From Acidobacteriota bacterium (GTDB lineage Bacteria > Acidobacteriota > Blastocatellia > Chloracidobacteriales > Chloracidobacteriaceae): a stretch of DNA of 34,088 nucleotides. The notes below the pieces were generated by a model, which saw nothing but the letters and a program-made list of their open reading frames with translations, was not told the origin of the DNA and searched no databases. The position numbers were made by a program, and so were the translations under genes. This document shows, piece after piece, positions 4,871 through 28,990 of the stretch. The stretch lies in NCBI GenBank assembly GCA_016208495.1, contig JACQXX010000173.1, positions 1-34,088 of the forward strand. Direction: 5' to 3'. Each line of letters begins with the position of its first letter. The stretch's first letter is position 1.

Positions 4871-5638
4871 ATGAAACTGAAAGATAGTATTGTGGTCATG
4901 ACCGGGGCTTCGAGTGGGATTGGGGCGGCGGCGGCTCGTGAACTGGCTCGACAGGGTGCCGTGGTGGTCCTGGCTGCTCGGCGGGTGGATGATCTGACCC
5001 GGCTGGCTGATGAGATTGTACGCGAAGGCGGGCGGGCGCTGGCAATTCCGACTGACATCAGCCGCTATGCTGATATTCAGACGCTCTTTGAAAAAACCCT
5101 GGCGGCCTATGGCCGGGTTGATATTTTGATCAATAACGCTGGAATCGGTGGTGGAAAACCTCTGGCGGATATGTCGGATGTCGCGCTCGAAAATACCGTC
5201 GCCGTCAACCTGCTGGGCCCCGCACGCTGCGCCCGGGCGGCAATTCCTCAAATGCGACGCCAGGGAACCGGCCTGATCATCAATGTTGGCTCTGTGGCTG
5301 GGGAAGTCGCCACGCTGGGAATCTATTCGGCCACCAAGTTTGGATTGCGCGGGTTTAACGATGCCCTCCGGCGCGAACTCTGGCAGGACAACATTGATGT
5401 GGTGCTCATTGCTCCCGGTTTTATCCAAACCCCGATGACCAGCGGATTAAAAATCCCCATGCCAGGGCCTGAAGCCGTTGTGAATGCCATTCTCAGTGCC
5501 ATTCGTCGGCCACGACGAAAAATTGTAGTGCCGTGGGTCTATCGCCTGTTGATGTATTTTGGAAAACTAGCTCCCTGGCTGGTGGACCGAATCATTGGCA
5601 GCGACCAGGGCCGCCAAGCCTATACGGAACGTTCTTAG
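4871..5638 (+). CDS. Short-chain dehydrogenase/reductase (SDR)
   Basis: A 256-residue classical SDR, an NAD(P)-dependent oxidoreductase with a Rossmann fold. The cofactor motif TGASSGIG is at residues 11-18, NNAG at 88-91, a Ser in NVGSVAG near 141, and the YSATK active-site motif has Tyr152 and Lys156. The ATG at 4871 is chosen because GGAGGGAAGG (4857-4866) is a good ribosome-binding site; a TTG at 4853 would remove it. The C-terminus has a hydrophobic stretch (VYRLLMYFGKLAPWLV) that could touch the membrane, as in several SDRs acting on lipids or hydrophobic substrates. It is unusual for an SDR to lie between the adaptor and permease genes of an efflux operon. Direct heptamer repeats flank it on both sides. 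The substrate cannot be deduced. Confidence 0.9.
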   Translation: MKLKDSIVVMTGASSGIGAAAARELARQGAVVVLAARRVDDLTRLADEIVREGGRALAIPTDISRYADIQTLFEKTLAAYGRVDILINNAGIGGGKPLADMSDVALENTVAVNLLGPARCARAAIPQMRRQGTGLIINVGSVAGEVATLGIYSATKFGLRGFNDALRRELWQDNIDVVLIAPGFIQTPMTSGLKIPMPGPEAVVNAILSAIRRPRRKIVVPWVYRLLMYFGKLAPWLVDRIIGSDQGRQAYTERS

Positions 5639-5788
5639 GGTTCGGGGTTCAGGGTTCAGGGTTTGGGGTATCGGGAAAAATGATTTGAAAATGGCAAAAA
5701 ATCACCTGATACCATTTTCAGAGGAGATAAGTTTTCCCCGAACCCCGAACCCCGAACCCCGAACTCTGAACCCCGAACCCCGAACCCT
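5638..5788 (+). repeat. Inverted heptamer arrays (GGGTTCR / YGAACCC) upstream of the RND gene
   Basis: At 5638-5668 at least four G-tracts separated by 3-4 nt (unit GGGTTCR) follow the SDR stop codon and even share its last base. At 5736-5788 the complementary unit CCCCGAA recurs about seven times. The two arrays can pair into a long hairpin with a roughly 65-nt loop; the flanks GGTATC (5667-5672) and GATACC (5708-5713) add a further paired segment. The G-rich arm also satisfies the usual pattern for a four-tract G-quadruplex. The structure lies in the probable transcript between SDR and permease, where it could act as a partial terminator or an mRNA-processing element; that is inference. Confidence 0.8.
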
Positions 5789-5827
5789 TAGCCATGAATC
5801 TCAATTGAACGAAAGCATTCGAGTTCT

Positions 5828-9081: not shown

Positions 9082-10953
9082 ATGTCTCACCCATCATCTT
9101 CCCGCCGGGCATTACGGACAGCAACTGCTGTTTTTGGTCTTGGGATATCACTTTTGGTTCCACACTCCCCGTTGATGGCGCAGGATCTGGCCGCCCATCA
9201 ACCAGGAACAGGCATTGTGGTTCAGTCACCAGCGCCCGCATCAGATCCTTCGCCGCAATCCCAATCAAGCGACGCCGCCGAACTCGCACGCAAACAGGCT
9301 GAAAATGAACCGCGTATCGGCGTGACCCCAGGTCGTTCAATGGGGTTGAGTTTGCAAAACGCGATTTTGATGGCGCTGGCCAAAAATCCGGACATTGAAA
9401 TCCAGCGGGTGGCGGTGCAGCAGGCGAATTATGATTTCGCCCGGTCGCGTGGCGCCTATGATTTGTTTCTTTCGTCGTCATTTTTTTATGAGACCAAAGC
9501 CGTGCCGACCGCATCGTTAATCGGAGGTGCTGGTGATTCGGGCGCGGTCACAACCGACACCTTTAACCAGACGCTCAATTTTAAACAGTTATTTAAATCA
9601 GGTGGGACGCTCTCGGTTGATTTCAATAATGGTCGTACCTCGACAGACAACGCGTTTACAGCGTTAAATCCCACGTACAATTCACAACTGAGTGCCACAT
9701 TCACTCAGCCGCTTCTAAAAAACTTCAAACTCGACAGTGCGCAGCGCCAAACGTTGCTGACCAAAAAACGGCTCGATATTTCTGATTCCCAGTTTCGGCA
9801 GCGTGTGATTGATATCATTGCCAATGTTCAGCGTGCCTACTGGGATCTGGTCTTTGCCAAACGGGATGTCGAAATCAAGGAAGAAGCCGTTAATCTGGCT
9901 CGCACCCAACTTGAACAAAACAAACGTTTTGTAGATGCTGGTACATTGGCGCCGGTTGAAATTGTTTCGGTTGAAGCCCAGTTGGAACAGCGCCAGGAAG
10001 ATGTTCTGATTTCGCTCGAACAGCTTACCCGGGCTGAAAATGCTCTCAAAAAGCTGATTTTGGAAAATCGAACTGACCCAATGTGGAATGAAGCGGTGTC
10101 TCCAACCGAGAAAATTCAACTGGAGCCGATCAGTTTTACCGTCACCGACGCAGTTGAAACCGCGCTCAAGAACCGACCCGAAATGGAACAGTTCCGGTTT
10201 CAGGGCGAGTTAAACAAAATCGAAACCGACTACTTTAAAAACCAGCTCAAACCACAGGTTGACCTGATCGCCAGTTATTCCCTGGCCGGGTTGGCTGGCA
10301 CCGTGCTTCCACCGCGGAATCCGTTTAGCGGGGGGTTCAACGCGGCGATTCTGGAACGGGTGAATTTGTTATCTTCGCAGCTTGGGGTTACCCCGGTGGT
10401 GATTCCACCATCAGGTCAAATTCCAGACTTTTTCTCCGGCGGATTGGGACAAAGCCTTGGAAACCTGTTTTCACGCAATTTCCGGGATGTGCGGGTTGGG
10501 GTTCAGTTTACCTTTCCGTGGCAAAATCGCGCCGCCAAAGCCGATTTGGGACGCTCACAGGCCCAAACCCGGCTCACCGAAGTTCAGCAAATCAAACAGG
10601 AATCCCAAATCGAATCAGAAGTTCGAGATGCGCTGCAGTCGGTTCAAACCGCTTCCAAGCGGGTCCAGGCGGCCCGGGCATCGCTCAAAGCCTCGGAATC
10701 CCAACTCGCCAGCGAAAAACGTCGTTTCGAAGTCGGTGAATCAACGACTTTTCTGGTGCTTGACCGTCAAAAAGCGCTTTCCGAAGCCCGTGGTCGCGAA
10801 TTACGTGCCATGACCGACTACAACAAAGCTGTGGCCGAATTACAGCGGGTGATGTCTATCACGCTCTCAGCTAACCGGTTACAGGTGAGTCCAGCTCAGG
10901 AAATCCAACCTTCTACCGCTGATACTGGCGGCCAGACATCTGACAAACCATAA
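9082..10953 (+). CDS. TolC-family outer-membrane efflux channel
   Basis: A 623-residue outer-membrane factor. A signal peptide runs to about residue 34 (FGLGISLLVPHSPLMAQ), followed by a low-complexity Pro/Ser/Gln linker (about 35-80). Two OEP domains follow. The first contains LSLQNAILMALAKNPDIEIQR (split here as LSLQNAILMAL then AKNPDIEIQR) and a long helix RAYWDLVFAKRDVEIKEEAV. The second contains AVETALKNRPEM and the paired helix around DALQSVQTASKRVQAARASL. It is longer than Escherichia coli TolC because of the linker and an insertion around 400-470. The start is supported by AAAGGAG at 9066-9072. It lies 113 nt after the permease and completes the tripartite pump; two hairpins lie in that gap. 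Confidence 0.92.
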   Translation: MSHPSSSRRALRTATAVFGLGISLLVPHSPLMAQDLAAHQPGTGIVVQSPAPASDPSPQSQSSDAAELARKQAENEPRIGVTPGRSMGLSLQNAILMALAKNPDIEIQRVAVQQANYDFARSRGAYDLFLSSSFFYETKAVPTASLIGGAGDSGAVTTDTFNQTLNFKQLFKSGGTLSVDFNNGRTSTDNAFTALNPTYNSQLSATFTQPLLKNFKLDSAQRQTLLTKKRLDISDSQFRQRVIDIIANVQRAYWDLVFAKRDVEIKEEAVNLARTQLEQNKRFVDAGTLAPVEIVSVEAQLEQRQEDVLISLEQLTRAENALKKLILENRTDPMWNEAVSPTEKIQLEPISFTVTDAVETALKNRPEMEQFRFQGELNKIETDYFKNQLKPQVDLIASYSLAGLAGTVLPPRNPFSGGFNAAILERVNLLSSQLGVTPVVIPPSGQIPDFFSGGLGQSLGNLFSRNFRDVRVGVQFTFPWQNRAAKADLGRSQAQTRLTEVQQIKQESQIESEVRDALQSVQTASKRVQAARASLKASESQLASEKRRFEVGESTTFLVLDRQKALSEARGRELRAMTDYNKAVAELQRVMSITLSANRLQVSPAQEIQPSTADTGGQTSDKP

Positions 10954-10988
10954 GGTTATCGGGTTGAAGACATCGGGCTGAAGAATTC

Positions 10989-11040
10989 GGGCTGAAGAAT
11001 TTGGGGACTTCCCCCATTTTCTTCAGCCCCTTTGTTTTCT
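10989..11040 (+). terminator. Rho-independent terminator closing the efflux locus
   Basis: GGGCTGAAGAA (10989-10999) pairs perfectly with TTCTTCAGCCC (11019-11029), with a further GGGG (11003-11006)/CCCC inner stem. The stem is followed by CCTTTGTTTTCT. A second, unpaired copy of the GGGCTGAAGAA unit precedes it at about 10975-10985, so the terminator is built from the same GGGCTGA unit found in the intergenic arrays at 17100-17245 and 22663-23206. Confidence 0.8.
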
Positions 11041-12957: not shown

Positions 12958-13200
12958 CGCCCGGATGGGCGGTGGAAAGTAGCCGGAGGGAAGCCTGCTT
13001 TGAGGCGCACCCTCCGGAATCCAAGAACAGACAATTTCGCGCCCGGATGGGCGCTGGACTAAAACCTCTGCGTCAATCTTGAACCTGAATCAAACATATC
13101 GTCCAGCGCCCATCCGGGCGCAAGACGAGACTGAACAGATCCGGTGGTAGCGCTCAAAGCAGCGCGACCACCGGCTACTCTCCAGCGCCCATCCGGGCGG
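12958..13200. repeat. Nested palindromic REP-like cluster
   Basis: Four copies of a CGCCCGGATGGGCGCTGGA-type unit are arranged as two direct (12958-12976 and 13039-13059) and two inverted (13101-13121 and 13181-13200). The middle pair is a perfect 21-bp inverted repeat with a 41-nt loop; the outer pair encloses it. Two further hairpins lie between: CCGGAGGG (12983-12990)/CCCTCCGG (13010-13017), and CCGGTGGT (13141-13148)/ACCACCGG (13167-13174). AGTAGCCGG (12979 on) is also complementary to CCGGCTACT (13171-13179). It fills the gap 12930-13249, with no gene. ACCACCGGCTA is also found in the larger elements at 22857-23086 and 28769-28990. Confidence 0.85.
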
Positions 13201-17099: not shown

Positions 17100-17245
17100 G
17101 TCTTCAACCCTCAGCCCGTTTTCTTCAGCCCGAAGTTTTCAACCCGACGTTTTCAGCCCTCAGCCCTGAGCCCCCAGCCCTCTGGTTTTTTCAGCCCCAA
17201 GCCCTCAGCCCCAAGCCCTGGTTTTTTCAGCCCTCAGCCCCATTC
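17100..17245. repeat. CAGCCCT/GGGCTGA heptamer array
   Basis: Repeated CAGCCC-containing units, mostly 7 nt apart or multiples with T-rich spacers (GGTTTTTTCAGCCC occurs twice), run from about 17110 to 17243. The last part overlaps the 3' end of the 17205 gene and encodes its final residues (about MGLRAEKTRAWG). Complementary GGGCTGA arrays lie at 22663-22716. Confidence 0.75.
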
Positions 17246-22571: not shown

Positions 22572-22662
22572 GGATTTGGTTGTTACGGCAGATGGGATTT
22601 TCGGATGGAAAAGCAGAACCGCTCAATTATGAATGATGAATTCTGAAAAGACCAACTGAATT

Positions 22663-22716
22663 GGGCTGAAGACTGAGGGCTGAGGGCTGAGGGCTGAAGA
22701 CTCGCAAGCTCGGGGC
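22663..22716. repeat. Left arm of long inverted repeat (three GGGCTGA units)
   Basis: This 54-nt segment contains three consecutive GGGCTGA-type heptamers followed by GACTCGCAAGCTCGGGGC. Its reverse complement is found at 23160-23206, identical except that the right arm has one heptamer less. Together they enclose the 230-bp palindromic element at 22857-23086. Four GGG tracts also make it a potential G-quadruplex. 22572-22662 has no gene. Confidence 0.85.
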
Positions 22717-22752: not shown

Positions 22753-22856
22753 ATAAAACCAATTCTTTAGCCCAATGTCTTCAGCTCCAAGCTTTCAGTC
22801 TTTCACAGGTAGATTATTGATTACGTCCCAGTGGGATGAGAATGTGGTGAATTGGA

Positions 22857-23086
22857 TTGAGCATCCTGAAAGGCTGCCGTTCGGATAGCCGGTCGGTTGC
22901 GAGGTTTTGGGAGCTACCACCGGGAAAAACATTCATTTCCCTCACCCTCCGCGCTGCTTGCCCGCACCCTGCGGGGCACGGGCAAGCAGCGCGGAGGAAC
23001 AAGAGGGTGGCCATGGTGACCGGTGGTAGGCCCAAAGCGGCCAACCGACCGGCTATCCGAACGGCAGCGCTTCGCGGTGCAAAACC
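22857..23086. repeat. Large palindromic element, copy 1
   Basis: The outer part contains a perfect 26-bp inverted repeat (22874-22899 with 23042-23067). Next inward are CTACCACCGG (22914-22923)/CCGGTGGTAG (23020-23029), and at the core a perfect 19-bp stem (22946-22964 with 22979-22997) with an apex around CCCTGCGGGG. The ends TTGAGCATCCTGAAAGG (from 22857) and GCGGTGCAAAACC (to 23086) recur in copy 2 in reverse orientation. No transposase or ORF of its own is present; short ORFs across it are artefacts. It is MITE- or REPIN-like, and mobilisation in trans is an inference. Confidence 0.88.
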
Positions 23087-23159
23087 AAATTAAACCCTGA
23101 AAAGGCGTGGGCTCAAAAAACAACGGGCTGAAGAAAACAGGATTAACCCGTTGTCTTCA

Positions 23160-23206
23160 GCCCCGAGCTTGCGAGTCTTCAGCCCTCAGCCCTCAGTCTT
23201 CAGCCC
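23160..23206. repeat. Right arm of long inverted repeat (two GGGCTGA units)
   Basis: These 47 nt are the reverse complement of 22663-22716 minus one heptamer. The arm ends 5 nt before the stop codon of the 23212 gene. A short extra hairpin lies just upstream, where AACGGG (about 23123) can pair with CCCGTT (23147-23152). Confidence 0.85.
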
Positions 23207-23211
23207 CGAGC

Positions 23212-24144
23212 TTATTTCTTCTCCGGCTTGGGCTTATAGATGCCGTCAAAGGCTTTGGTCCAGGTCTTGCCGCCATCTGATGACTGGTTCCAAACCTGGT
23301 TGATGGTGCCGTCCGGGAGCTTTTTCCAGGTAATCTGATTTAACAGCCGGGTTGTTTGTCCAGGTTGTGGTTTGGCTTCACCACGCAAATCCATTACTCC
23401 GTCTTTAAATTCACCCGAAAGTTCCAAAATACTTCCAGTTACATCCACCCAGGTCTGTTTCCATTTCTTTTCAGTTTGATCATACACGTTAAAACTTTTG
23501 CCTTCATATGGGCTGAAAGGACGGGTGGAATAATTTTCAAAGATAATACAGTCGTTGAGAATTAACTGAATGCTGCTTTCACCGATTTTCTGCCCTGCCG
23601 GGTTAAACACGTCCCATTCACCAATCCAGAAATCAAACTGGCGGCATTCGGGACGGTCACAGGGTTTGGCCAGTAAGTGCGCCTGTTGAACGATAGGTTT
23701 AAATCGCTCATCATCGCGAACCGCCGCCAGGTCGGCATCAGTCTTGAGTTTGTCTTCGTTGCTGAACCCGGCTTTGACGGCCTGGTCTAGCCATTTCAGC
23801 GATTCATCTTTCTGGTTTAACCGACTATAGACACACCCAAGGTTAAACATTGCAAGTGGAATGTTGCCAAGTTCCACAGCCTTTAAATAAGCCGGGATCG
23901 CCGCTTCGAGTTTTCCCATCAATTGCAGTGACGTTCCAAGTTTAAACCAGGCTGCGGCATTCTTGGGTTCGGCTTTGGTCACTGCTTCAAATGCTTTGGC
24001 GGCTGCTTCCCATTTTTGCTCTTGATACAACTTGTTGGCTTCAACCGCTGCTGGGCTCTGAGCGCAAACAGTCCAATGATTTGCGCCAAAACAGACCACC
24101 ATCATCAAAACCAACACAAGACGGAACCATTTTTTGTTGTGCAT
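23212..24144 (-). CDS. Secreted TPR protein with DUF1579-like domain
   Basis: A 310-residue exported protein. A signal peptide runs to about residue 28 (LVLVLMMVVCFGANHWTVCAQ). Two to three TPR units follow (about 32-130: ANKLYQEQKWEAAAKAFEAV, then AWFKLGTSLQLMGKLEAAIP, then AMFNLGCVYSRLNQKDESLK). After a short linker, residues about 160-305 form a DUF1579-like beta-rich domain beginning CRQFDFWIGEWDVFNPAG and ending SSDGGKTWTKAFDGIYKPK. This architecture is common in Acidobacteria and the domain is lipocalin-like in character; the ligand is unknown. Several Cys pairs (CDRPEC) could form a disulphide. It lies 185 nt downstream of a TonB receptor, separated by octamer repeats. Confidence 0.85.
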   Translation of the reverse strand: MHNKKWFRLVLVLMMVVCFGANHWTVCAQSPAAVEANKLYQEQKWEAAAKAFEAVTKAEPKNAAAWFKLGTSLQLMGKLEAAIPAYLKAVELGNIPLAMFNLGCVYSRLNQKDESLKWLDQAVKAGFSNEDKLKTDADLAAVRDDERFKPIVQQAHLLAKPCDRPECRQFDFWIGEWDVFNPAGQKIGESSIQLILNDCIIFENYSTRPFSPYEGKSFNVYDQTEKKWKQTWVDVTGSILELSGEFKDGVMDLRGEAKPQPGQTTRLLNQITWKKLPDGTINQVWNQSSDGGKTWTKAFDGIYKPKPEKK

Positions 24145-24190
24145 TCAATTTCGTCTCCTCAATGTATGAATAGGGCCTGGACACTTTGTG

Positions 24191-24222
24191 AGCGAAGTAG
24201 CGAAGTAGCGAAGTAGCGAAGT
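24191..24222. repeat. AGCGAAGT octamer array
   Basis: Four perfect 8-nt units lie upstream of the TPR gene. Their complement, with a C/T difference that leaves G-U pairing in RNA, forms the array at 24284-24330, so the two can fold into a long hairpin in minus-strand RNA. Confidence 0.85.
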
Positions 24223-24283
24223 AGTTTAGTGTCAGACCTCAGATTGGTTTCTGTCAACCTATAAACTCTTTATCTCTGAATGT

Positions 24284-24330
24284 TTCACTACTTCACTATT
24301 TCACTACTTCACTACTTCACTATTTCACTT
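24284..24330. repeat. TTCACTAC/TTCACTAT octamer array, terminator-like
   Basis: About five 8-nt units of TTCACTAY begin at the stop codon of the minus-strand TonB receptor (24329-24331). On that transcript they read as an AGTGAAGT-type array followed about 60 nt later by ACTTCGCT units. The pair could serve as the 3' hairpin of the receptor mRNA. There is no typical U-tract. Confidence 0.8.
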
Positions 24331-27300
24331 AGAAAGTAATTTTCAGCGCCAGTTGGACGACCCGTGGGCTGTTTAACTGAAAGCCGATTTGACCAAAAGT
24401 GGTCGCGTTGATGTTTTGGTCAGCAAAGCCAAAAATTGGATGATTGGCAACGTTAAAGAATTCAGCCCGAAATTCGGTGTTGATGCGTTCGGTGATGCTG
24501 GTTCGCTTCATCACGCTGAAATCCCAGTTGAAAAACTGTGGGCCGTTGAACGGAAGCCGGGCCAGTGAACCAATCGTACCAGCGCCCGGATTGAAAAAGA
24601 CCTGCGAACTGAAAGGCGATTGACCATCCGCCGCCGTTCCACGTCCGTCACGGCCAATCACAGATGGATCAATAAAATACACGCCCCGATCAGTAAATTG
24701 AACGCCCAACAAGTCTTTGATTTGATCATTGGTGAGCGAGGTATTGGCGGTGTTGTTGGCTGATCGTCCACCCCGGTTCAGGGTGCCGCGACCAGAGGTG
24801 ATTGAGAATGGACTTCCGGTCTGCCACACCACGATTGATGTGACGGCCCATCCGCCCGCCAGTTTTTTCAAAATTGGGTTGCCGGGATTGAAGCGTTTCC
24901 CAGGTCCAAACGGCAACTCATAGATAGCATTGGCTTTGAAGATGTGTGGCACGTCGAGTTGTGACCGATTATACTCGACTGATTGCTGGTTAATGTCAAG
25001 AAATGGTTCGAAAATCACCTGCGTACTGGTACCAGGTGAATTGCTCAGGTTTTTGCTGAAGCTGTAATTGGCCTGGAAGGTCAACCCGTTCTCAAAGCGT
25101 TTGCGGAGTTCAACCTGCAGCCCATGGTAGTTTGATTCGGAGTAATTCCCCAACACATCCGCCACAAACGTGTTTGGATTGGCCACCAACTGGACGTTGC
25201 CTGCCAAACCGAACTGGTGATAGATCTGGGCCAAACTGCCGGCTTCCCCGCGTTGAATCAGCGGCTGAATGGTGCCGGTGTTGGTGAGCAATCCGCCGGC
25301 TACCAGGTTTGGAAACACAGTCAGTTGCTGACTGCCGGAAATATTTGGGTTAAACCGTGGATCAAAGCGACCAGTCTGCGCCAGGGCTAAAAACCCGTTC
25401 CGCTGTGCCCGGAGCACATCCGCCGCAAATCCATTGTTGGTCACGTCAACCTGGTTGAAGTCAATGCCCCGCACCAGATTCGTGCTCCGGTTGCCGACAT
25501 ACCGGACCGTCATGGTGAGCGACGAGGAAAGCTCGCGTTCGAGGCTCAGATTCCACTGGTGGAAGGACGGGGTTTCCAATTCTGAATCAATCCCAAATGC
25601 CGCCGAGGTGTTATCCTGGGTAAAGTTTGTCAGGTAAGGCCGTGGGACTTGTAATGAAGGGGTTTGAAACCGCGTTTGCAACAGCCGTGGAATATCATTG
25701 CTAATTGTTCCAAACAAACGATTTCGATTGATGGTTGCCGTTAATCCATTGTTATTGGTCACGGCATTGAGCGGAGCAGCAATCGCCTGATCGTTGACAT
25801 AAGCAATGGAGTAACCGCCGCGCAATACGGTTTGCCGACCCAGACCAGGAATATCCCAGGCAAAGCTCAAATTTGGCGCAAAATTGTTGCGATCCGGGTT
25901 GTTGAACCCACCGTCAACAAAATCAAGCTGGCCGTTTGGATCAAGCACGGCTTCGCGGGTGGTTCGGCCATTGAGGATCGGCAACAACCCCAGGTTGTCA
26001 CGTTCCCGGAGCGGTGATTGAAAGTCATACCGCAACCCCAAATTGACCGTTAACCGGGGGTTAACCCGCCAGGAATCAGTGACATAGCCTGAATACTGGT
26101 CAACCAGAAAGCGGCGCTGGTTCACCGCGCCTTGAGTATACCCCGAGTCTTTTGAAGTCACTTCGTAGGTCACCGTTCCGGCGGTAATCACGCCACCCAA
26201 AAACGCCAGCAAATTGTTGGCGGTGTTTAACTGGGTCGCATCAATGCCGCCTGGGAAATCACCCCCGACGAGTGGAATTTCAGCCGGAGTTTTCACGCCA
26301 AACCCAAGCGTAAAGGCTGGCGGTGAACCCGCACTAAAGAAAAACGGATTGGTCCGAATCCGGTCATACTGGCCGCCAAAGCGGACAAAATGTTCGCCTT
26401 TGGCCCACGAAGCCGAGTCAATAAATGACATGGTGGAAGTTGATCGGCCCTGGTTGGTAAACAAATTGACCGGATTGGTCACAATCGCCGGAATGACGAC
26501 CTGAAACGAACTGGTGTCAGCGTTTGAGTTAAAGAGCGGTTCGTTTCGGTTTCCACCCACGCGGAATTCATTGTTGAGATTGTTGGTGATCGTCCAAATC
26601 CAGGCACCGACGCCAAAATGGGTGACGTTGGTGTTGTTGACCCCTGGATTGAGCGAAAACGTCGTGTCAATGTCAGGTCGCTCGACCTGTTCACTGGCCC
26701 GGTTATACACACCTTCCAAACGGTGACGCGAATTGAGGAGAACATCCGTCCGAACCGTCATCGTGTTGCGATCCCAGTCCGAAGACTGGTTAAAGGCAAA
26801 ACCCGAAGTGTTTAACCCATCGCCGACCGTGCTGGCATTGACGTTGGTCGGAATCTGCCCGAGCAATCCCTGGCTAAACGGATCAACTGACAGGTTGCGC
26901 AAACCGAGCACATTGATTTTTCGAATCTGCCCCTGATTGTCGCGATAAGTGAAAATGCCATTTCGGGCATCCGGCAAAAAGGTCGTCGTCGTCGTCGGGC
27001 TGGCGGTTCGTTCGCGATAGCCTTCGTACACACCGAAAATAAAGATCTTATCCTTTTTAATCGGGCCGGAAACCGTGCCGCCAAACTGGTTACGGATTAA
27101 CTGCGGTTTGGCCACGCCCTGCAGATTATTGAAGAAATCGTTGGATCCAAGGGCGCTGTTGCGGTGAAATTCATAGAGTGAGCCGTGGTACTCGTTGGTG
27201 CCCGATGGCGTCACGGTTCGAATGGCCGAGGCACCGCCGGAAACTTCGGCACCGGCATTCTGTGAAATGACGCTAAATTCAGCGACCTGGGCCACGGTTG

Positions 27301-27991
27301 GACGATTGACCGCCAGATCAAGCGAATTTTCTCGGAACAGGTTGTCCTGAATGTTGATGCCATCCTGGGTCACCGTGGCCGTCGAAGCCCGCTGGCCATT
27401 GATCGTGGTTGTCACATTGGCGCGGGCACTGTTGGCGCCGCCTGCGACACCTGCTTGCAGTTGGATGAGTTGCAGCGGGTCACGACCGTTAAGGGGTAAA
27501 TCCTGTACCTGCTTCTGGTTGACGGTATTTTTGACTTCGGCGTTGGTCGTCTGGACCAGTTCTTCACCAGCGGCAACCGTCACCACATCGGTGGCGCCGC
27601 CAGCTTCAAGCGAAACCGAAAGCCCATATTCCTGACCGACGTCAACCTTGACGTTTTCAGTCACTGACTTTTTAAAGCCAGGAACTTCGATTGAAACCGT
27701 GTAAAACCCAACCGGAAGCTGGGGAAAAATGACAAACCCATCTTCGTTGGTGGTGGATGTCAGTTGTTGACCAGTGCCAAGATTGAGCAACTGGACTTCG
27801 GCCCCAGCCACAACGGCTCCGGATTGATCCTTGGCGGTTATCACCAGCCGGCCATTGGTACTTTGGGCCTGTACGACCCCAGAAAAAAAGAGAAGCGTAG
27901 CCAGAACCCAGCCGCAGTGTACCGCCAGAGAAGGCGCAAGCCACCCTTTTCCTGACAGATGATTCCCTGTCAAATTTCTGAAAAACTGCAT
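24329..27991 (-). CDS. TonB-dependent receptor with carboxypeptidase-regulatory-like domain (Oar-like)
   Basis: A 1220-residue outer-membrane receptor of the large acidobacterial type. A signal peptide ends near residue 42 (LLFFSGVVQAQ). A CarboxypepD_reg-like beta-sandwich (about 46-130; GRLVITAKDQSGAVVAGAEV) is followed by the plug (about 150-300; DLPLNGRDPLQLIQLQAG) and a beta-barrel ending in the C-terminal aromatic signature VVQLALKITF. The ATG at 27991 has a good GGGAGG site on the minus strand; the frame is open to 28174 but only through GGGTTCA repeat DNA. These proteins are thought to import polymers or large ligands, but the substrate cannot be read. A second receptor lies upstream on the same strand with a small barrel protein between. 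Confidence 0.93.
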   Translation of the reverse strand: MQFFRNLTGNHLSGKGWLAPSLAVHCGWVLATLLFFSGVVQAQSTNGRLVITAKDQSGAVVAGAEVQLLNLGTGQQLTSTTNEDGFVIFPQLPVGFYTVSIEVPGFKKSVTENVKVDVGQEYGLSVSLEAGGATDVVTVAAGEELVQTTNAEVKNTVNQKQVQDLPLNGRDPLQLIQLQAGVAGGANSARANVTTTINGQRASTATVTQDGINIQDNLFRENSLDLAVNRPTVAQVAEFSVISQNAGAEVSGGASAIRTVTPSGTNEYHGSLYEFHRNSALGSNDFFNNLQGVAKPQLIRNQFGGTVSGPIKKDKIFIFGVYEGYRERTASPTTTTTFLPDARNGIFTYRDNQGQIRKINVLGLRNLSVDPFSQGLLGQIPTNVNASTVGDGLNTSGFAFNQSSDWDRNTMTVRTDVLLNSRHRLEGVYNRASEQVERPDIDTTFSLNPGVNNTNVTHFGVGAWIWTITNNLNNEFRVGGNRNEPLFNSNADTSSFQVVIPAIVTNPVNLFTNQGRSTSTMSFIDSASWAKGEHFVRFGGQYDRIRTNPFFFSAGSPPAFTLGFGVKTPAEIPLVGGDFPGGIDATQLNTANNLLAFLGGVITAGTVTYEVTSKDSGYTQGAVNQRRFLVDQYSGYVTDSWRVNPRLTVNLGLRYDFQSPLRERDNLGLLPILNGRTTREAVLDPNGQLDFVDGGFNNPDRNNFAPNLSFAWDIPGLGRQTVLRGGYSIAYVNDQAIAAPLNAVTNNNGLTATINRNRLFGTISNDIPRLLQTRFQTPSLQVPRPYLTNFTQDNTSAAFGIDSELETPSFHQWNLSLERELSSSLTMTVRYVGNRSTNLVRGIDFNQVDVTNNGFAADVLRAQRNGFLALAQTGRFDPRFNPNISGSQQLTVFPNLVAGGLLTNTGTIQPLIQRGEAGSLAQIYHQFGLAGNVQLVANPNTFVADVLGNYSESNYHGLQVELRKRFENGLTFQANYSFSKNLSNSPGTSTQVIFEPFLDINQQSVEYNRSQLDVPHIFKANAIYELPFGPGKRFNPGNPILKKLAGGWAVTSIVVWQTGSPFSITSGRGTLNRGGRSANNTANTSLTNDQIKDLLGVQFTDRGVYFIDPSVIGRDGRGTAADGQSPFSSQVFFNPGAGTIGSLARLPFNGPQFFNWDFSVMKRTSITERINTEFRAEFFNVANHPIFGFADQNINATTFGQIGFQLNSPRVVQLALKITF

Positions 27992-28038
27992 AAAACCTCC
28001 CTCGGTGGGAAAAACTAGCCAAAAATTTGACCCAAAGG

Positions 28039-28060
28039 GCCGACAAGTCGGCGCACTCCA
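28039..28060 (-). repeat. TGGAGTGCG palindromic REP, copy 1
   Basis: On the minus strand this reads TGGAGTGCGCCGACTTGTCG then GC, with GCCGAC/GTCGGC pairing. Two related units occur at 32681-32704 and 32714-32737. It lies in the 5' region of the TonB receptor gene, about 50 nt upstream of its start. Confidence 0.75.
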
Positions 28061-28133
28061 AAGTTTTTGGCTGGTATTTATTTTTTGTTCGGGGAAATTG
28101 ATGTTCAGTGAAGCCCTTGAAGAAACAGTACTT

Positions 28134-28164
28134 CCCTGAACCCTGAACCCTGAACCCTGAACCC
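28134..28164. repeat. CCCTGAA (GGGTTCA) heptamer array
   Basis: Four CCCTGAA units plus a final CCC. On the minus strand, the coding strand of the surrounding genes, it presents five GGG tracts separated by 4 nt, a candidate G-quadruplex. The interval 27992-28186 between the receptor and barrel genes otherwise holds only the REP at 28039-28060. Confidence 0.85.
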
Positions 28165-28186
28165 TATTCAGCATTACAATCGGCGA

Positions 28187-28711
28187 TTACCGTTTTCCAA
28201 ATCGGAAAACAATTCCTGTGGAAAGCCGAAGGTGCGATTGCCGGCTATCGAGCAAATTTGTATGAAACAATTCGCCCTGAATCACGCGAACTGAAACCCG
28301 ATCCGTCATTTTGTAATCCAGCCCACCACCGCCAATAAAGGCGAAACCTGAACTATTCCCTGGATTTGACAGCTTGGCGCCACCAAACAGGAAATGTGCG
28401 AAGGGTGTTATTTTCGCGTCGGAGTGATAGGCAAACCGTGGCCCGAAAGTATAGGAATACATCGTGGTCCCTTCGCCGGCGTAGCCGCCAAAATCAGCCA
28501 CTAGCGACACCGCTTTATGAACAGTAGCGGCCACTGAAACGCTGGCACCATTGGCGTTGACGCCTTCTCCGGGAGCCGTGCCGTTGAGTCGGGTAAATGA
28601 ATATCCGGCAAACACTTCGGCTTTCGGAACTTCCTGGGCCATTCCCGCCCCTGTTCCAATCACCGCCCATACAACGGAGAAAAAAAGAATCCGTATAAAC
28701 TTATTCATCAT
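28187..28711 (-). CDS. Small outer-membrane beta-barrel protein
   Basis: A 174-residue exported protein with a signal peptide to about residue 25 (FFSVVWAVIGTGAGMAQ). Alternating hydrophobic/aromatic strands (EVFAGYSFTRL, YSYTFGPRFAYHS, ITPFAHFLFGGAKL, FAFIGGGGLDYKM) end in LRLSTGIVFRFGKR. It is like the 8-strand OmpA/OmpW-type barrels common in Acidobacteria. No periplasmic anchor domain follows. ATG 28711 is preceded by AGGAG at 7 nt spacing; a second ATG is at 28708. It lies between the two TonB receptors and may belong to the same outer-membrane function. Confidence 0.85.
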   Translation of the reverse strand: MMNKFIRILFFSVVWAVIGTGAGMAQEVPKAEVFAGYSFTRLNGTAPGEGVNANGASVSVAATVHKAVSLVADFGGYAGEGTTMYSYTFGPRFAYHSDAKITPFAHFLFGGAKLSNPGNSSGFAFIGGGGLDYKMTDRVSVRVIQGELFHTNLLDSRQSHLRLSTGIVFRFGKR

Positions 28712-28768
28712 AAAGGAACTCCTGTTGGTTATTCAGCACGGAAGATGTCTGGTCACGTGTCGGTTTTT

Positions 28769-28990
28769 GGTTTTGCACCGCGAAGCGTTGCCGTTCGGAT
28801 AGCCGGTCGGTTGGCTGCTTTGGGCCTACCACCGGATCCGAAGGCATCTTCCTCCTTTCTCCTCGTGTCGCCCGCGCCCCCTGCGGGGCGCGGACGACAC
28901 GAGGAGGGGGGACGAACCGTTTCCCGGTGGTAGCTCCCAAAACCTCGCAACCACCGGCTATCCGAACGGCAGCCTTTCAGGATGCTCAAC
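28769..28990. repeat. Large palindromic element, copy 2 (inverted relative to copy 1)
   Basis: Reverse complement of the 22857-23086 element at both ends: GGTTTTGCACCGCGAAGCG from 28769 and CCTTTCAGGATGCTCAA to 28990. The terminal inverted repeat is at 28789-28813 with 28948-28971 (one base deleted), then CTACCACCGG (28826-28835)/CCGGTGGTAG (28924-28933). The core stem differs in sequence from copy 1: CTCCTCGTGTCG (28859-28870)/CGACACGAGGAG (28895-28906) plus CCGCGCCCC (28872-28880)/GGGGCGCGG (28885-28893). It fills 28712-29000 upstream of the barrel gene. A separate hairpin, TGGGGT (29012-29017)/ACCCCA (29025-29030), follows. No gene lies in 28712-29115. Confidence 0.88.

Follow-up and report, generated by a model that had tools for sequence, protein, structure and literature searches.

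A REPIN-like palindromic element in an acidobacterial genome whose central hairpin is probably kept paired by template switching

The window analysed here is a 34,088-nucleotide stretch of an Acidobacteriota bacterium (contig 173, JACQXX010000173.1, of the 8.38-Mb, 177-contig draft assembly GCA_016208495.1), and it carries two copies of a palindromic mobile element of about 225 bases, copy 1 at 22857-23086 and copy 2, in the opposite orientation, at 28769-28990. We consider it probable that this element is a tnpA-less, REPIN-like derivative of IS200-type TnpA loci, and that its central hairpin, HP3, is held paired by template switching from one arm to the other. The question behind this reading is whether long stems stay perfect through selection acting on point mutations or through the copying of arms. 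A single genome here supplies dozens of recent copies of the family, whose conserved flanks serve as a clock; the two models give different, countable predictions for it, and the counts lean towards copying.

Read inwards from either end, the element consists of a short hairpin (hp1, with stems of the CCTGAAAGG or CGCGAAGCG type), a longer hairpin (hp2, of the CCGGTGGT...ACCACCGG type), a linker and HP3, after which the order is mirrored. Folded as single-stranded DNA (ssDNA), copy 1 reaches -93.2 kcal/mol (z -12.7) and copy 2 -85.5 kcal/mol (z -12.0), values equalled by none of 200 shuffles in either case. The parts of the two copies are listed here; the outer ends, which define types A and B, are taken up further below.

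22800-22822, + strand: outer left end of copy 1, the type-B end CTTTCACAGGTAGATTATTGATT; this left end was recognised in 13 of 21 type-B copies, copy 1 included
22857-22923, + strand: left end unit of copy 1, with hp1 CCTGAAAGG at 22865-22873 and hp2 at 22889-22923
22924-22945, + strand: left linker of copy 1, unpaired and variable
22946-22997, + strand: HP3 of copy 1, arms 22946-22969 and 22974-22997, loop TGCG at 22970-22973; 24 bp with 2 mismatches
22998-23019, + strand: right linker of copy 1
23020-23086, + strand: right end unit of copy 1, with hp2' at 23020-23052 and hp1' CGCTTCGCG at 23068-23076
23087-23104, + strand: presumed degenerate outer right end of copy 1, seen by eye and missed by the end pattern
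28752-28768, - strand: right-side outer stretch of copy 2, TCACGTGTCGGTTTTTG; the left outer end of this copy was not recognised by the pattern
28769-28990, - strand: whole palindrome of copy 2, inverted relative to copy 1, with hp1' at 28779-28787, hp2' at 28803-28835, hp2 at 28924-28957 and hp1 at 28973-28981
28859-28906, - strand: HP3 of copy 2, arms 28859-28880 and 28885-28906, loop 28881-28884; 22 bp with 1 mismatch

An earlier reading of the window, made from its letters alone (the sequence-only reading), had described two copies in opposite orientation, and the inverted repeats recovered in the window bear this out, positions included. It had also described middle stems that are self-complementary yet different, which they are, although not at the lengths given: the 19 bp of copy 1 is the 24-bp stem listed above, and the '12 plus 9 bp' of copy 2 is a single stem of 22 bp. 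The apex said to be shared, CCCTGCGGGG, does stand on the + strand of both copies, but with respect to the inverted ends the loop runs the other way round (TGCG in one copy, GCAG in the other). A search of the window against Rfam gave no match at gathering scores, and a known RNA family was rejected as its identity on that ground.

These are far from the only copies; a genome with no more than these two, which the sequence-only reading had named as a case that would count against it, is rejected. An 18-nucleotide core of the element's ends had 100 + 85 matches in the host genome (at most 3 mismatches), against 12 + 3 for a reversed-pattern control; the places group into at least 93 clusters, and the family amounts to about 100 copies. 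From end matches with both ends within 330 bases we extracted 70 distinct two-ended elements, leaving 32 lone end matches unused. Four of the 70 lie within an open frame of at least 200 codons, by a crude count made without gene calls; the family is high in copy number and mostly extragenic. In nine contigs of the draft (C14, C40, C68, C91, C125, C134, C139, C152 and C161) the sequence breaks off no more than about 225 bases from the end core of a copy, as though assembly had been halted by the hairpin. Outside the host the full element was not recovered: a 230-bp query matched none of 38 other genomes of the same family, order or class (G001 and G015 being scored on 20 candidates each), and a public set of species genomes yielded 53 stretches with one 18-mer each, 2 of them in acidobacterial metagenome-assembled genomes. 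None of the 53 stretches matches the 67-nucleotide ends (E ≤ 0.01), and we therefore take these 18-mer matches as chance.

Within the family, HP3 differs from copy to copy while remaining a stem. The centre could be measured in 59 of the 70 elements; of the other 11, seven were short, contained N or were misplaced, and four lacked the anchors (L021, L043, L091, L097), L021 and L097 visibly keeping a long stem. A stem of 18-30 bp was present in 54 of the 59 measured centres, without mismatch in 38. Among these 54 stems there are 37 different left arms over a fixed 18 bases from the apex, a comparison that, like the tree counts below, takes positions from the apex without gaps, where one-base differences in C runs inflate the differences; when arms of unequal measured length are compared, 53 distinct left arms are found over the 59 copies. 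GC content is 82% in the HP3 arms and 52% in the linkers. Arms belonging to one copy pair at 97.9%; when arms of different copies are combined the figure is 58.7%, and in 10,000 re-pairings the observed value was never attained (ungapped).

Covariation across many copies, which the sequence-only reading had proposed as a test, was assessed on an alignment of 47 distinct centres. Of its 861 cells 97.7% are paired, where shuffles reach 83.0%, and 16 of the 19 HP3 pairs have changed on both sides. Double-changed cells number 106, where shuffles give 17.9 and none of 500 reaches the observed count. The covariation score is 0.396, as opposed to 0.120 in shuffles and 0.032-0.073 when the structure is slid by 1-3 columns, and RNAalifold run on the aligned centres agrees. 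When changes are placed on a tree of the element outside HP3, 126 of them affect the two sides of a pair within one branch, with 19 confined to the left side and 20 to the right; if positions are shuffled within branches, such paired changes number 38.8, with a maximum of 53. The claim that what is preserved or regenerated is the fold and not the sequence is thus upheld by many copies and by covariation, and the evidence leans to 'regenerated', by template switching.

The link to a transposase comes from the host genome and its relatives (up to 58 genomes, the host's own included). Nine matches to Y1_Tnp were found in the host, and one of these loci, C102, sits among four units resembling the element's ends; after three of them comes AACAGGTT, which many copies have in their linkers. 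The C102 product matches Pfam Y1_Tnp at 1e-23, has ISHp608 TnpA among its solved relatives and is of the IS200/IS605 type by a curated model (62.8 bits, cut-off 55). Against REP_Tyr_transpos it scored 25.6 bits where the cut-off is 80, this being the one protein scored, and a classical RAYT was rejected for it on that score. Its motif is YIHNQENHH, and Y---Q--HH is present in 23 of the 24 open reading frames (ORFs) recognised among 32 loci, 8 of which gave no ORF by the pattern used. Homologues of this TnpA (E ≤ 1e-20) occur in 35 of the 58 genomes, the host's included, as few, diverged copies per genome; the motif, a length of about 150 amino acids and the low copy number are those of TnpA_Y1 subclass 1.2.

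In the relatives, the flanks of several homologous tnpA genes follow the order hp1-hp2-hp3-tnpA-hp3'-hp2'-hp1', seen by eye most clearly in L177 and also in L179 and L176. The hp2 motif TAGCCGGTGGTGAAACCACCGG (at most 3 mismatches) is found in 16 of the 58 genomes, in some of them at control level, and inverted hp2 pairs too close together to hold tnpA occur in G026, G047, G052, G022, G014 and G033. An inverted hp2 pair is present in 16 of 20 regions taken from six genomes, and hp3/hp3' was recognised by eye in all six with a readable centre. The outermost hairpin, hp1, has at least 5 bp in 37 of 44 contexts in the relatives, where 21 different stems occur and shuffles reach that length in 3.4%; in the host its 3-bp stem is paired at 3/3 positions in 136 of 139 ends, in five different sequences. 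Thus hp1, too, is kept as a fold. As regards the GTAG tag that stands beside REP stems, in the right hp2 of the element GGTAG precedes GGCC-CAAAGC-GGCC, whereas hp2 of the relatives begins with TAGCC instead. Hairpin units of the relatives (L192, L196, L178, G025) also stand in direct tandem arrays at a spacing of about 55-70 bases, several of them around tnpA, unlike the inverted pairs.

How HP3 stays paired is most open to counting in a cluster of 15 close copies, which lie 0.038 substitutions per site from their consensus outside HP3. Four of the 15 (L086, L011, L009 and L020) carry compensated substitution pairs. Independent double mutation predicts 0.18 such copies (P(≥4) = 3e-5), and 0.19 even if every uncompensated copy is removed. 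The L009 and L011 variants occur in no other of the 70 copies; counting unique variants alone leaves 2 of 15, for which P is about 0.014 (Poisson, by hand).

Template switching would also be expected to invert loops and to lengthen stems in one step, and both are found. The loops TGC and GCA, which are mutual reverse complements, change into each other by 11 parsimony flips on 33 tips, which matches the 11.25 obtained with shuffled labels (33 of 54 tips, the 21 copies with other loops being left out). The stem of L052 reaches 30 bp, its right linker being the reverse complement of its left one, whereas the close sisters L042 and L031, with 5/161 and 4/161 differences outside HP3, have a 21-bp stem and another linker; the same extension was seen by eye in L018/L082 compared with L047 and in L087 compared with L026. 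Of the double-changed cells, 52 of 106 are exchanges that no wobble-paired intermediate can bridge, by a hand count of cells and not of events. The pattern of the stems fits template switching better than point-by-point compensation.

Selection for the fold, whether as an ssDNA substrate or as RNA, could keep HP3 paired through ordinary compensatory point mutations. The near-complete pairing of aligned cells is what it predicts; the hp1 fold is kept across genera, as by eye is that of hp3, and the high GC of the arms relative to the linkers is not expected from neutral copying alone and points to selection for stability as well. Yet even perfect selection leaves the four compensated copies, two of them with unique variants, far above what it would produce in 15 close copies; it demands neither loop inversion nor stems extended into the linkers (L052, L018), and damaged centres persist. 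As the explanation of the paired stems we regard it as unlikely. Hypermutation or active diversification of HP3 was rejected for now, the arms diverging less than the linkers over all copies (0.232 vs 0.435) and at no higher rate than the linkers within the close cluster.

Several observations weigh against arm copying at TnpA-derived ends. About 12 of the 70 copies have damaged centres: by our measure 5 of 59 are without the long stem (long bulged stems still form in L017 and L058, but not in L004, L070 or L103), and among the 11 unmeasured copies 7 have, by eye, a deletion or a replacement of the centre (L023, L028, L038, L043, L072, the first copy in L081 and L091). Non-complementary centres, which the sequence-only reading had held to speak against it, thus exist, but as a minority. 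The L020 variant recurs in L007, L015, L070 and L093, and that of L086 in L071, L084, L092 and L103; both may have been brought in by recombination, and with two of the four compensated variants recurring we hold the copying model less firmly and the recombination rival more so. L092 has the right-arm base of L086 alone and resembles a stepwise intermediate, a one-sided step towards L086 of the kind that selection for the fold would use. Clean one-sided substitutions occur in the close cluster (L092, L083, L057/L013, L026), and 13 one-sided cells are spread over 6 of its 15 copies, part of them due to gap placement in C runs. With HP3 mutating three times faster than its surroundings, a count of four compensated copies would be no more than mildly unusual (P 0.056); against a threefold faster stem speaks that in the close cluster the HP3 arms are no faster than the linkers (0.043-0.054 vs 0.055). 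The trees stand on about 170 sites, and tree error could partly account for the apparently free flipping of the loop. Only one of the nine Y1_Tnp loci of the host has the end units. Finally, L004 joins two unlike arms, from which it follows that copies recombine with each other too. In L043 (1325-1538), the whole centre has been swapped for an unrelated AT-rich stretch bounded by AAGTACCTT and AAGGTACTT.

Recombination or gene conversion between copies might by itself shuffle an old pool of stems onto different ends, with no new palindromic changes. L004, with its two unlike arms, speaks for this, and the stem variants of L016, as well as those of L020 and L086, are found again in other copies, that of L031 also in L058. 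Such shuffling, however, does not supply the compensated variants peculiar to L009 and L011, nor the extension in L052, which matches the opposite linker of L052 itself, and it leaves the palindromic origin of the pool unexplained. We judge it quite unlikely to be the main process.

The outer surroundings of the palindrome divide the copies. In type A, 34 of the 70 copies have both of a common pair of terminal inverted repeats and 11 more have one, in elements of 206-406 bp. Identical TWA triplets (TTA or TAA) flank both sides in 25 of the 34, where permuting the sides yields 14.9 (p 0.0002), and 9 of the 34 have non-matching triplets; type A thereby shows both the terminal inverted repeats and the target-site duplication of a DDE-type miniature inverted-repeat transposable element (MITE). 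The same ends, GGGAGCGTTAAAAAACAACTTCC, bound a MITE of 178-232 bp without the palindrome in 12 of 14 regions picked among the matches listed (L199, L201, L202, L204-L212), the other 2 having one end only within 4 kb. A transposase for the type-A ends was not found in the stretches inspected, 14 regions among the matches listed, and no DDE family was searched for. Type B, with 21 of the 70 copies and both window copies among them, is without the type-A ends: 13 have a distinct left end (of the CTTTCACGTGTAGGTTTTTGATT type), and 8, window copy 2 included, have only the right stretch common to type A. In the 13 testable type-B copies a direct repeat is not in evidence (p 0.82). Four of the 70 fit neither type.

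An ordinary DDE-transposase MITE family, in which the palindrome is a passenger without any link to TnpA, has to be considered. The terminal repeats and matching triplets of type A are what such a family would show, and the palindrome-free MITE with the same ends fits as well. On the other hand, the type-B copies do without these ends and, where testable, without a direct repeat, and the core has its three-hairpin plan in common with the tnpA flanks of other genera; we find this account rather unlikely. The palindrome appears either to predate the MITE in which many of its copies lie or to be independent of it.

The course of events that we favour, arm copying in an element derived from TnpA loci, would begin with IS200-type (HUH Y1) loci whose ends held three hairpins on either side of tnpA, as in the flanks of the relatives. 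Loss of tnpA would have joined hp3 and hp3' into the one central hairpin; the architecture is common to both kinds of locus, and the order of events is read from it. The sequence of hp2, likely the TnpA contact, is kept within a lineage, whereas HP3 is kept as a fold only. When HP3 is single-stranded or extruded in replication, the polymerase may switch template at its tip and copy one arm from the other, as the footprints suggest. A mutation in one arm would thereby be either erased or written into both, the loop would often be inverted, and copies would diverge while each remained a near-perfect, GC-rich palindrome. Type-B copies may spread by a 'REPIN-like' movement of ssDNA, consistent with the lack of a target duplication in them. 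Type-A copies, about half of the family or more, would spread by hitch-hiking inside the DDE-type MITE, whose ends and TWA direct repeats are observed. Sequence comparison is our ground for inferring that TnpA mobilises the element, that hp2 has the role given here and that events took this order.

A broader proposal, which we put forward tentatively and with some doubt, is that a class-wide group of subclass 1.2-like IS200-type TnpA spreads three-hairpin palindromes of this plan, with hp1 and the central hairpin inherited as folds and nearly every copy bearing its own template-switched palindromic 'barcode'. If this were true, arms would be rewritten with great regularity, and such barcodes might let long palindromes persist by sparing them recombination between identical repeats.

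Two further kinds of repeat were seen in the window. A second, related hairpin family occupies 12958-13199, with CGCCCGGATGGGCG units plus the following lone unit:

13141-13177, + strand: unit CCGGTGGTAGCGCTCAAAGCAGCGCGACCACCGGCTA of the second hairpin family; 9 genome matches at no more than 3 mismatches, one of them beside another Y1 tnpA (L110)

Arrays of seven-base units (CCCTGAA, GGGCTGA and similar) stand in both orientations at 5634-5805, 10953-11010, 17100-17230, 22655-22716, 23160-23218 and 28117-28166; several are intergenic, and two, mutually inverted, bracket copy 1.

Among known systems the nearest are the REPINs, doublets of repetitive extragenic palindromic (REP) sequences with RAYT/TnpA_REP, in whose available description compensatory spacer changes are common and the ends are 16-mers (Bertels & Rainey 2011, PMC3116915). 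The likeness is considerable: two inverted, REP-like hairpin units, found in all 70 two-ended copies, surround a less conserved spacer that still folds, the roughly 100 copies lie mostly outside long frames, and a tyrosine transposase gene has similar end units around it. The differences are that the linked transposase is of the IS200 type and not a RAYT by the curated model, and that each end has two hairpins with a third at the centre, the ends of 67 nucleotides and the central stem of 18-30 bp being longer than the 16-mers of that account. The element works like a REPIN, but since the single gene associated with it did not pass the RAYT test we do not file it there. The suggestion of the sequence-only reading that it would be unusual for a simple MITE is fair, although compensatory spacer changes had already been published for REPINs. 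In GTAG-tagged REPs, sub-families have alternative complementary stem residues, so that there, too, the fold is kept while the stem sequence changes, and RAYT genes with long inverted repeats, and not REPs, at their flanks are reported as well (PMC3733652); their stems, however, are of 5-13 bp and their families are defined by consensus, and the available part of that account describes no single-genome set of dozens of long stems.

Footprints of the kind seen in HP3 have been predicted for template switching in RNA genes (PMC8794818, 2022), namely simultaneous compensatory changes, stem extension and loop inversion. There, according to the sections available, compensation with loop inversion is rare (6 of 9,931 cases) and the role of the process in stem maintenance is called 'less clear'; those data concern RNA genes across species, whereas ours concern copies of one DNA element in one genome, with the orientation of the loop free. 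Compensatory REPIN spacers (PMC3116915), alternative REP stems (PMC3733652) and the making of hairpins by template switching (PMC8794818) are thus already in print, as far as the text of these papers was available. A literature search at the level of titles and abstracts, with most subscription journals outside it, brought up nothing recognised as subclass 1.2 palindromes or as REPIN template switching. As far as that literature shows, two things are new: dispersed three-hairpin palindromes tied to a subclass 1.2-like TnpA, together with a record, inside one genome, that lets the turnover of a hairpin be counted against a flanking clock.

The classes of TnpA_Y1 allow the associated gene to be placed (PMC6006769, in the portion available). 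Class 3 comes partly from Acidobacteria, stands between insertion sequence and REPtron, and has about 600 dispersed structures in Solibacter usitatus; a Y1 gene with dispersed flanking structures is what it has in common with our system, but class 3, described with CnGA feet, has Y----Q where the element-linked TnpA has Y---Q--HH, and a class 3 TnpA is not preferred on account of this motif. Subclass 1.2, from mostly Cyanobacteria and Bacteroidetes, agrees in Y---Q--HH, in its length of about 150 amino acids and in its few, diverged copies per genome. It is reported to be generally without typical terminal secondary structures, whereas the loci described here have three-hairpin flanks (L176, L177, L179 and others) that are also dispersed as palindromes. 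Structured, dispersed ends are thereby placed on a Y1 subclass reported generally without them, which bears on the IS200-type origin of REP/REPIN systems.

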